Made by a program: the position numbers and the translations under genes | Notes under the pieces: generated by a model | Database searches by the model: none | The model's input: only the letters and a program-made list of their open reading frames with translations | Told to the model about the DNA's origin: nothing | Shown: piece after piece, positions 8,090 to 24,129 of the stretch | Layout of the letters: every line of letters starts with the position of its first letter | Position numbering within the stretch: position 1 is the first letter of the stretch | Origin: Candidatus Zambryskibacteria bacterium RIFOXYC1_FULL_39_10 | Lineage (GTDB): Bacteria > Patescibacteriota > Minisyncoccia > Phycocordibacterales > WO2-35-19 | DNA: 32,710 nucleotides | Assembly (NCBI GenBank): GCA_001824275.1 | Contig: MHWW01000011.1 | Location: 34,767 to 67,476 of the forward strand | Reading direction: 5' to 3'

Positions 8090-8158
8090 CCCGTTAGAAA
8101 TTAAACTTATAAACTTATTACCTCCTAACGAGTCTCGTAAATTTCTAACGGGACTCAT
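8084..8158 (-). repeat. Start-codon-associated palindromic element, copy 1 (sigma factor)
   Basis: 13-bp perfect inverted repeat CCCGTTAGAAATT(8090-8102)/AATTTCTAACGGG(8140-8152); ATGAGT duplicated at both edges on the minus strand. Confidence 0.85.
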
Positions 8159-8535: not shown

Positions 8536-8540
8536 CAGGT

Positions 8541-8612
8541 GCGCCCAGTAGGAATCGAACCTACGACCATTTGCTTAAAAGGCAACTGCTCTACCGACTG
8601 AGCTATGGGCGC
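8541..8612 (-). tRNA. tRNA-Lys (anticodon TTT)
   Basis: Minus strand GCGCCCATAGCTCAGTCGGTAGAGCAGTTGCCTTTTAAGCAAATGGTCGTAGGTTCGATTCCTACTGGGCGC folds as a cloverleaf; loop CTTTTAA. Confidence 0.93.
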
Positions 8613-8869
8613 ATAATTATTGATTTTACAAAACTTCTACCTTTAGAACTTTTCAATTCCTTTTCTCTTTTCATCGCTTCTCTTCTTGTTTCGAAGTCTT
8701 CTGAATATACTACATTCCAAAAACCTTTTCCAATATTTTTTGATGTGTATGATTTTTCTTTACTCTTCTTGATTCCATTATGATATTTCAGCCTTTTAGA
8801 GATATCACTAGTCTGCCCTATGTATATTTTACCACTATCTGAATTTTGTATTACATACACCTTAAACAT
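8603..8869 (-). CDS. GIY-YIG nuclease domain protein
   Basis: MFKVYVIQNSDSGKIYIGQTSDISKRLKYHN; stop codon TAG lies inside tRNA-Lys. Confidence 0.88.
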   Translation of the reverse strand: MFKVYVIQNSDSGKIYIGQTSDISKRLKYHNGIKKSKEKSYTSKNIGKGFWNVVYSEDFETRREAMKREKELKSSKGRSFVKSIIMRP

Positions 8870-8919
8870 TTGCTTAAAGCCCGTCAGCTGACGGGTCTAC
8901 CGACTGAGCTATGGGCGCA
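8867..8919 (-). pseudogene. Partial tRNA-Lys 5'-half duplicate with a 16-nt palindrome in the anticodon-stem region
   Basis: 24-nt identity 8896-8919 = 8590-8613 and 12-nt identity 8867-8878 = 8568-8579, separated by CCCGTCAGCTGACGGG (8880-8895). Confidence 0.85.
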
Positions 8920-17891: not shown

Positions 17892-17980
17892 ATGAATCCC
17901 GTTAGAAATACCATGAAATATATATTAAATACAAAACAAAATAACAAACCTTTAAAAGCTAAATTTCTAACGGGATGAAT
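17892..17980 (+). repeat. Start-codon-associated palindromic element, copy 2 (pilN)
   Basis: CCCGTTAGAAAT(17898-17909)/ATTTCTAACGGG(17963-17974); ATGAAT at both edges; 88 bp identical to copy 3. Confidence 0.92.
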
Positions 17981-18520
17981 CTTTTGCCAATTATAGAAAA
18001 AGAAGCGGTAAAAAAAGGACTTAAGCGTCGTTTTATAATCATGGCCGCACTTCTTTTGGCGGTATCTTTTGGAGTTGGTGTGATTATGCTTGTTCCTTCC
18101 TATTTTTTAGTAATGGGTAATATTTCTAAAATAGAAATGAATAATAGTTCAATAGGTATTGAGAATAAGGGTGAAGTTGAAGAAATGCTTAATTTACCAA
18201 TAGAAATAAATTCCAAATTAAAATTTATGCAAAATATTGGGGCAAACCAATTAACGATTGAGGTTTTTAGTAAAATAATAAAATTTGTTCCTGAAAAAGT
18301 AATAATTGATTCAATAACTTTTTCTCGCAATGAAGCTTACAAAGAAAAAAATGGGATTTTAGTATTAGTTTCTGGAACATCGGTTGATCGGAATTCTTTG
18401 ATTTCATTTTCTAATTCATTAGAACAATCCAAGGACTTTACCTTTGTGGATGTACCAGTTTCAAGTCTGACTAAAGACAAAAATTTACCATTCTCTATAA
18501 ATATTTTTATTGAAAACTAA
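17975..18520 (+). CDS. pilN: PilN-like type IV pilus assembly protein
   Basis: Short cytosolic N-terminus (MNLLPIIEKEAVKKGLKRR), one TM helix, position after pilM. Confidence 0.7.
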   Translation: MNLLPIIEKEAVKKGLKRRFIIMAALLLAVSFGVGVIMLVPSYFLVMGNISKIEMNNSSIGIENKGEVEEMLNLPIEINSKLKFMQNIGANQLTIEVFSKIIKFVPEKVIIDSITFSRNEAYKEKNGILVLVSGTSVDRNSLISFSNSLEQSKDFTFVDVPVSSLTKDKNLPFSINIFIEN

Positions 18521-18521
18521 A

Positions 18522-18610
18522 ATGAATCCCGTTAGAAATACCATGAAATATATATTAAATACAAAACAAAATAACAAACCTTTAAAAGCTAAATTTCTAA
18601 CGGGATGAAC
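18522..18610 (+). repeat. Start-codon-associated palindromic element, copy 3 (pilO)
   Basis: CCCGTTAGAAAT(18528-18539)/ATTTCTAACGGG(18593-18604); edges ATGAAT/ATGAAC. Confidence 0.92.
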
Positions 18611-24019: not shown

Positions 24020-24129
24020 ATGTATCCCGTTAGAGTTTTACATTTTTTATATGTGGTATTAATTTTATTAAACGAACATGAATATATTATTAGTTTTATT
24101 AAGTAATTAAAAACTCTAACGGGATGTAT
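24020..24129 (+). repeat. Start-codon-associated palindromic element, copy 4 (recO)
   Basis: CCCGTTAGAGTTTT(24026-24039)/AAAACTCTAACGGG(24110-24123); ATGTAT at both edges. Confidence 0.92.

Follow-up and report, generated by a model that had tools for sequence, protein, structure and literature searches.

Palindromic elements in start codons of a Patescibacterial genome and their putative mobilisation by a GIY-YIG nuclease

What places an identical palindrome at the start codons of two neighbouring genes, pilN and pilO? In the window (the whole 32,710-nt stretch of Candidatus Zambryskibacteria DNA analysed here), the first-pass annotation had described identical 88-bp palindromes with perfect 12-bp arms, the right arm abutting the ATG of each gene, and with the copies at a sigma-factor gene and recO had counted four, all at start codons. 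It had proposed a small mobile element targeting translation starts, a start-codon-gating RNA hairpin, or both. The description was borne out by the sequence and by Pfam, which identified pilN, pilO, recO and the sigma gene, and the sigma-factor and recO copies proved to be of the same kind.

Anatomy of the repeats in the window

The elements and their host genes are located as follows.

17898..17974, + strand: 77-bp palindromic element, family F1, in the pilN start codon; arms CCCGTTAGAAAT/ATTTCTAACGGG
17893..17896, + strand: left TGAA of the 4-bp duplication, inside the original ATGAAT; outer T at 17897; empty sites ATGAATCTTTT in G005 and G003
17975..17979, + strand: outer A and right TGAA (17976-17979); the regenerated pilN ATG is 17975-17977
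17892..17978, + strand: leader ORF MNPVRNTMKYILNTKQNNKPLKAKFLTG; its stop codon TGA (17976-17978) overlaps the pilN ATG
18528..18604, + strand: identical 77-bp element in the pilO start codon; duplication TGAA 18523-18526/18606-18609; pilO ATG 18605-18607
24026..24123, + strand: 98-bp element, family F2, in the recO start codon; duplication TGTA 24021-24024/24125-24128; recO ATG 24124-24126
8090..8152, - strand: 63-bp element in the start codon of a sigma-70 family gene; duplication TGAG
17975..18520, + strand: pilN host gene, PF05137
18605..19129, + strand: pilO host gene, PF04350
24124..24702, + strand: recO host gene, PF11967
7550..8158, - strand: sigma-70 family host gene, ORF drawn from the left ATG, PF04542/PF08281

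Comparison within the window shows that 17892-17979 and 18522-18609 are identical over 88/88 bp. Each repeat is composed of the 77-bp palindromic element, an outer T·A pair and a duplication of host bases, in the layout A[TGAA]-T-CCCGTTAGA…TCTAACGGG-A[TGAA]. The 12-bp arms are perfect in the pilN and pilO copies and are lengthened by the outer T/A pair. The flanking bases track the target (TGAA at pilN and pilO, TGTA at recO, TGAG at the sigma gene) and therefore represent a target-site duplication. Upstream of the element, the left ATG and the native leader are retained. In the sigma-70 copy the left and right ATG lie 69 nt apart and in frame, which gives a 23-aa extension, MSPVRN...ISNG. Such sequences explain the 'MNPVRN' N-termini mentioned in the first-pass annotation, as ATG-NN-T-CCC-GTT-AGA reads M-x-P-V-R.

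Start codons as insertion sites in the genome and the genus

The 744-kb genome contains 29 occurrences of the 9-bp arm, 28 of which pair into 14 exact hairpins of 62-102 bp. No copy with 1-2 mismatches per arm was found in this genome, and a reversed-pattern control for the hairpin gave 0 matches in it. Exact arm pairing and the zero control counts rule out chance repeats. Thirteen of the 14 copies lie exactly in ATG start codons, so that the enrichment at translation starts suggested by the four copies of the window holds genome-wide; the remaining copy is intergenic, with a TTTT duplication. Besides pilN, pilO and recO, the host genes include those which, from their protein sequences, we take to be rpsB, rpsH, rpmJ, pyrG and ftsX. 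A rough gene model built from simple ORFs comprises 701 genes (85% coding), leaving 109 kb of non-coding DNA with 2,933 intergenic ATGs, none of which carries an element. Weighing the 701 gene starts against these ATGs, 19% of insertions would be expected at starts, and the probability of 13/13 is ~5e-10, assuming that insertions in coding sequence are always purged and that survival is equal at gene starts and intergenic ATGs. Element length modulo 3 is mixed among the copies, which rules out frame-preserving insertion as a rule.

Exact elements are present in 5/8 genomes of the genus, and their presence differs between congeners. Orthologues of pilN and pilO without the element, i.e. empty sites, are found in G003, G005 and G006 (for pilO, ATGAATAATTGG in G005 and ATGAATAGTTGG in G006), so that the comparison proposed by the first-pass annotation gave clean results. 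In the sister species G006, recO begins GTGTATCAC, with the element absent, and most of the 13 host-gene orthologues start at the same codon, element-free. These clean orthologous starts establish that the copies are insertions. An informative exception is rpmJ of G006, where a degraded copy, CTAACAGG, remains. Elsewhere, decay has left a right arm alone: at pilN in G002, and at rplI and rplM in G007.

Across the genus, in 27 of the 38 T/A-ended elements the restored site places a start codon at offset -1 relative to the target-site duplication, and almost none fall at other offsets; the other T/A elements include starts of short genes, e.g. rpmJ. Listed by gene, 36 copies carry a right-hand ATG, among them those at rpmJ, rpsB, rpsH, rplW, pyrG, uvrB and ftsX. 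The duplications at start codons are 3 bp (TGA), 4 bp (TGAA, TGGA, TGAG, TGTA) or 5 bp (TGGAA, TGCAA) and, whatever their length, begin at the TG of the start codon. Within internal families the orientation relative to the gene is constant, despite the palindromic ends. The ftsX start holds family F2 in G000 (L215) and family F5 in G003 (L205) and G004 (L214), i.e. independent hits or replacement at one start codon.

How the host genes are translated bears on this placement. The right arm does abut the ATG, as the first-pass annotation had noted in concluding that there is no room for a Shine-Dalgarno motif; however, the left ATG and its leader remain, and the genome hardly uses such motifs, so that the lack of room weighs little. 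In G000 their frequency is 11.5% vs 9.1% in shuffles (5-mers, 6.7% vs 1.8%), and the base profile before the ATG is enriched in A(-11) and T(-7), resembling a -10 box. Given this scarcity and the -10-like signal, many genes may be leaderless. In a leaderless gene, the start codon is among the few positions at which an insertion would leave promoter and coding sequence alike intact, and this could account for some of the bias.

In every F1 copy of the genus the 28-aa leader frame is open. Its retention is not significant, and we claim no protein-coding selection on it, since all copies are also open in 180/2000 column shuffles and differences fall about evenly across codon positions. Copies lacking the left start codon exist (ATA and CYTGT flanks) and keep the right ATG; for these, reading from the host ATG cannot apply. 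Several of the host genes are normally essential; together with these copies, this means that ribosomes must be able to initiate or re-initiate at the right ATG. The TGA/ATG overlap in F1 and autonomous copies suggests translational coupling. The element stem folds (MFE z -2.7 to -4.5). A known structured RNA family was also considered and discarded: in an Rfam search of the window only tRNAs reached the gathering threshold, with no match for the element.

Nuclease-coding relatives and wider distribution

A 278-bp element with the same ends is present at ruvX in G003 and G004, and a 274-bp one is found in G002. The interior of this long element encodes a ~95-aa GIY-YIG protein (PF01541, E = 6e-17 and 2.5e-14) whose closest solved relative is the UPF0213 protein BH0048 (E = 1e-8). 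Among the loci read, 25 full-length copies (274-283 bp; 3 from the genus) have these arms. Their right end is ATG in 20/25 and GTG in 2/25, and the nuclease frame is open in 14/25. The nuclease is their sole gene, and many unrelated genes lie downstream. Where an intact copy has a left ATG, the frame M-[N/D/S]-P-V-R…L-T-G (MNPVR…LSLTG, then stop) is read from the ATG of the host gene, and its TGA stop overlaps the regenerated start, at +1 of the right start. Values of pN/pS between intact nuclease copies are mostly 0.2-0.4 (~0.25); the nuclease has thus been kept functional while preceding unrelated genes.

Homologues of the nuclease occur in 125 of the 147 genomes of a class-level sample. Short elements are found in 22 of 24 genomes with close nuclease copies vs 39 of 123 others (Fisher P = 3.7e-8), with means of 8.5 and 1.4 short copies respectively. 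The TTTCCT/TTCT-arm 3' end of the nuclease element is also found in families F3-F5. Short copies are non-autonomous. Four GIY-YIG homologues are encoded in the window's own genome, where no full-length nuclease copy bounded by these arms was seen. A scan for long pairs of these ends, filtered for target-site duplications, recovered spans that encode the nuclease and others that are nested or composite; none was recognised as carrying a transposase, the longer spans being partly annotated. The nuclease, like the duplicated left ATG and the lineage dependence described below, had no part in the first-pass annotation.

Two loci show further arrangements. In G074 (L401, C1:183028-183419) a short element lies in the start codon of an apparent nuclease-coding element. 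The GIY-YIG copy at L382, inserted before an ATG, has arms that covary (CCCGATAGTGTT/AACACTATCGGG), which suggests further arm subfamilies.

Elements were found across Patescibacteria and in other phyla. In a set of 145 elements drawn from a public collection and from viral contigs, about half show an exact duplication of 4 bp adjoining the outer pair; duplications of any other length are rare. Elsewhere in the class, a count over 366 short elements gave 64 ends flanked by ATG. Of 33 right-end ATGs read, own genome included, 20 head an ORF of at least 60 codons and 13 have no long ORF. Copies with C/G ends are located exactly at stop codons (offset 0, 11/79), between genes, and at start codons that are then GTG. 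The start-codon bias is lineage-specific, not universal. A subset (e.g. L079, L112, L141, L174) has CYTG(T/C) on the left flank and (A/G)TGAA on the right, without a 4-bp duplication. Phages were set aside as carriers: a search gave one weak protein match in a phage collection and 19 stretches among 2.9 million viral contigs.

Proposed mobilisation, alternatives and known systems

We consider it probable that the repeats are non-autonomous copies of a very small mobile-element family, mobilised most likely by the GIY-YIG nuclease. The target would be opened by a staggered cut, with one side fixed between the A and the TG of the start codon and the other 3-5 nt further in. The TG and the bases that follow would be duplicated and the terminal A of the element would restore an ATG on the right, a step that can be read from the insertion sites themselves, while the upstream ATG would keep the native leader and promoter. 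Translation of the host gene would then yield an in-frame extension (the sigma-factor copy is an example) or begin at the regenerated ATG, through initiation or re-initiation there. The autonomous form would be the 274-283-bp element with the same ends and the single ~95-aa GIY-YIG gene. Lodged in an ATG, as its architecture indicates, it would be read from the host ATG and hand the ribosome back through the TGA/ATG overlap; the start signals of the host gene would presumably drive the nuclease, which is the likeliest enzyme to open the target and mobilise both forms. Against this model stand the window's own genome, in which no full-length nuclease copy with these arms was seen, the lineage-bound start-codon bias, right-end ATGs outside the genus that head no long ORF, copies with no left ATG and the non-significant retention of the F1 leader frame. 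More tentatively, we propose a minimal transposon of a new class in which this one small nuclease replaces a transposase, selects start codons (stop codons in other subfamilies), is expressed through the start that it has invaded and returns a working start to its host.

The placement of the copies could also reflect survival: many T-rich sites would be hit, and only insertions that spare promoter and coding sequence would persist. An insertion in the start codon does spare both and duplicates the ATG, and in an SD-poor genome with a -10-like signal directly before the ATG, insertions just upstream would break promoters. C/G-type copies at stop codons (offset 0, 11/79) and in intergenic DNA fit this account as well. 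However, it leaves the 2,933 empty non-coding ATGs to be explained, the probability being ~5e-10 even with coding insertions purged, and the identical, hence recent, pilN and pilO copies likewise lie at starts; we hold survival without targeting to be possible but unlikely. As to the enzyme, terminal inverted repeats and a 4-bp duplication are typical of DDE elements, and no GIY-YIG enzyme is known to transpose DNA by itself. The repeats might thus be conventional MITEs moved by a DDE transposase from elsewhere in the community, with the GIY-YIG gene as a passenger. Yet in the long-pair scan, with its longer spans partly annotated, no pair was recognised as bearing a transposase. The supposed passenger is the only gene that the 25 full-length copies contain, it evolves under purifying selection, and its occurrence follows that of the short copies, which makes this account improbable.

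A cis-acting RNA hairpin gating the start codons of a regulon, mobile only in the distant past, would account for arms that are perfect in 14/14 copies, none having 1-2 mismatches per arm, for the constant orientation within families and for compensatory changes in stem 2 of F4/F5. It appears distinctly improbable, as presence varies among the eight congeneric genomes, the host genes form no obvious regulon, and the pilN, rplI, rplM and rpmJ starts still hold damaged copies (CTAACAGG, or with the left arm lost). Insertions in essential ribosomal-protein genes and decayed copies at working starts suggest tolerance rather than a switch. Of the two roles offered by the first-pass annotation, that of a mobile, start-targeting element is therefore strongly supported, by the duplications, the clean empty sites, the 13/14 copies in starts and the longer nuclease-coding relatives; for gating, the stem does fold, but tolerance is what the copies suggest. 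Finally, matching codons that flank a hairpin insertion of variable length and frame recall translational bypass, in which ribosomes would leave the message at the left ATG and resume at the right one, as happens in T4 gene 60 and the yeast mitochondrial byps. Take-off and landing codons do not match in all copies, since several have no left start codon, and those whose left codon is no longer a start keep the right ATG. Direct initiation or re-initiation is simpler, and we find bypass scarcely credible.

Among known systems, the free-standing GIY-YIG homing genes segA-segG of T4 resemble the nuclease-coding elements in that a small GIY-YIG nuclease gene is the sole cargo and lies at gene boundaries, and the phage homing gene mobE has a start/stop overlap, UAAUGA, suggestive of translational coupling (PMC2988022). 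However, a homing gene spreads by copying into the equivalent site of the orthologous locus, whereas the present elements, of which only full-length copies have a nuclease ORF, occupy many unrelated genes and no single cognate site, and also differ in their inverted-repeat ends, 4-bp duplications and abundant non-autonomous copies. Bacterial MITEs such as MITEAba12 and the Correia elements are likewise short and multi-copy, with terminal inverted repeats and target duplication (PMC6382973, PMC2229807). The present elements share these features, but no transposase element with ends in common was recognised in the loci analysed: their coding relative has a GIY-YIG nuclease instead, they insert in start codons, and one end regenerates the ATG. 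Rickettsia palindromic elements are 105-146-bp palindromes tolerated in protein genes (PMC2229807); they lie in frame within coding sequence, whereas here the start codon is occupied, families do not keep a common frame, and there is what appears to be an autonomous partner.

Short multi-copy palindromes are also characteristic of REP/RAYT systems, and RAYT genes occur in this genus. The RAYT loci examined (8 of 33 matches) are flanked by other palindromes, e.g. GAAGAAGGGTTCCCCTTCTTC, which at L254-L257 constitute a separate REP family. These other palindromes, and the presence of RAYTs in congeners with few or no elements, argue against mobilisation by RAYTs. Where REPs have a fixed adjacent tetranucleotide and no duplication, the present elements have duplications of varied sequence, the CYTG-flanked minority apart. 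Integron attC sites were dismissed as well: the arms hold GTTAGA/TCTAAC, but with opposite polarity. GIY-YIG inserts that do not behave like homing introns have been reported in CPR rRNA genes (PMC11270868) and may be related to the present elements; they sit in rRNA genes, and the terms 'inverted repeat' and 'palindrom' are absent from the text searched. A literature search excluding preprints and most subscription papers found no account of start-codon insertion or of GIY-YIG transposons. As a defining feature of each known family was looked for and found missing, we file the elements under none of them and regard them as a new kind of element, with a mechanism that is still a proposal and a nuclease arrangement described nowhere in the literature searched.

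If this interpretation is correct, there is a type of mobile element whose movement involves no known transposase and which, at ~280 bp, ranks among the smallest autonomous DNA transposons. The 'MNPVRN…' N-termini that the first-pass annotation mentioned for Patescibacterial protein predictions would then be element sequence. Singling out genuine start codons from the thousands of ATGs available would mean that initiation sites are recognised. The elements would serve as a natural tag for how start sites are chosen at the DNA level and possibly as a tool for start-codon-precise insertion. They also make translation initiation testable in SD-poor uncultured bacteria, where ribosomal-protein genes appear to tolerate a strong hairpin directly before the ATG.

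The window holds one more GIY-YIG ORF (8603-8869, - strand; PF01541, E = 4.5e-17), within the region 8538-8919. It is flanked on one side by an intact tRNA-Lys (8538-8612) and on the other by a duplicated 5' half of a tRNA, which carries the 16-bp palindrome CCCGTCAGCTGACGGG (8880-8895). The region 8538-8919 is probably a related insertion in a tRNA gene.
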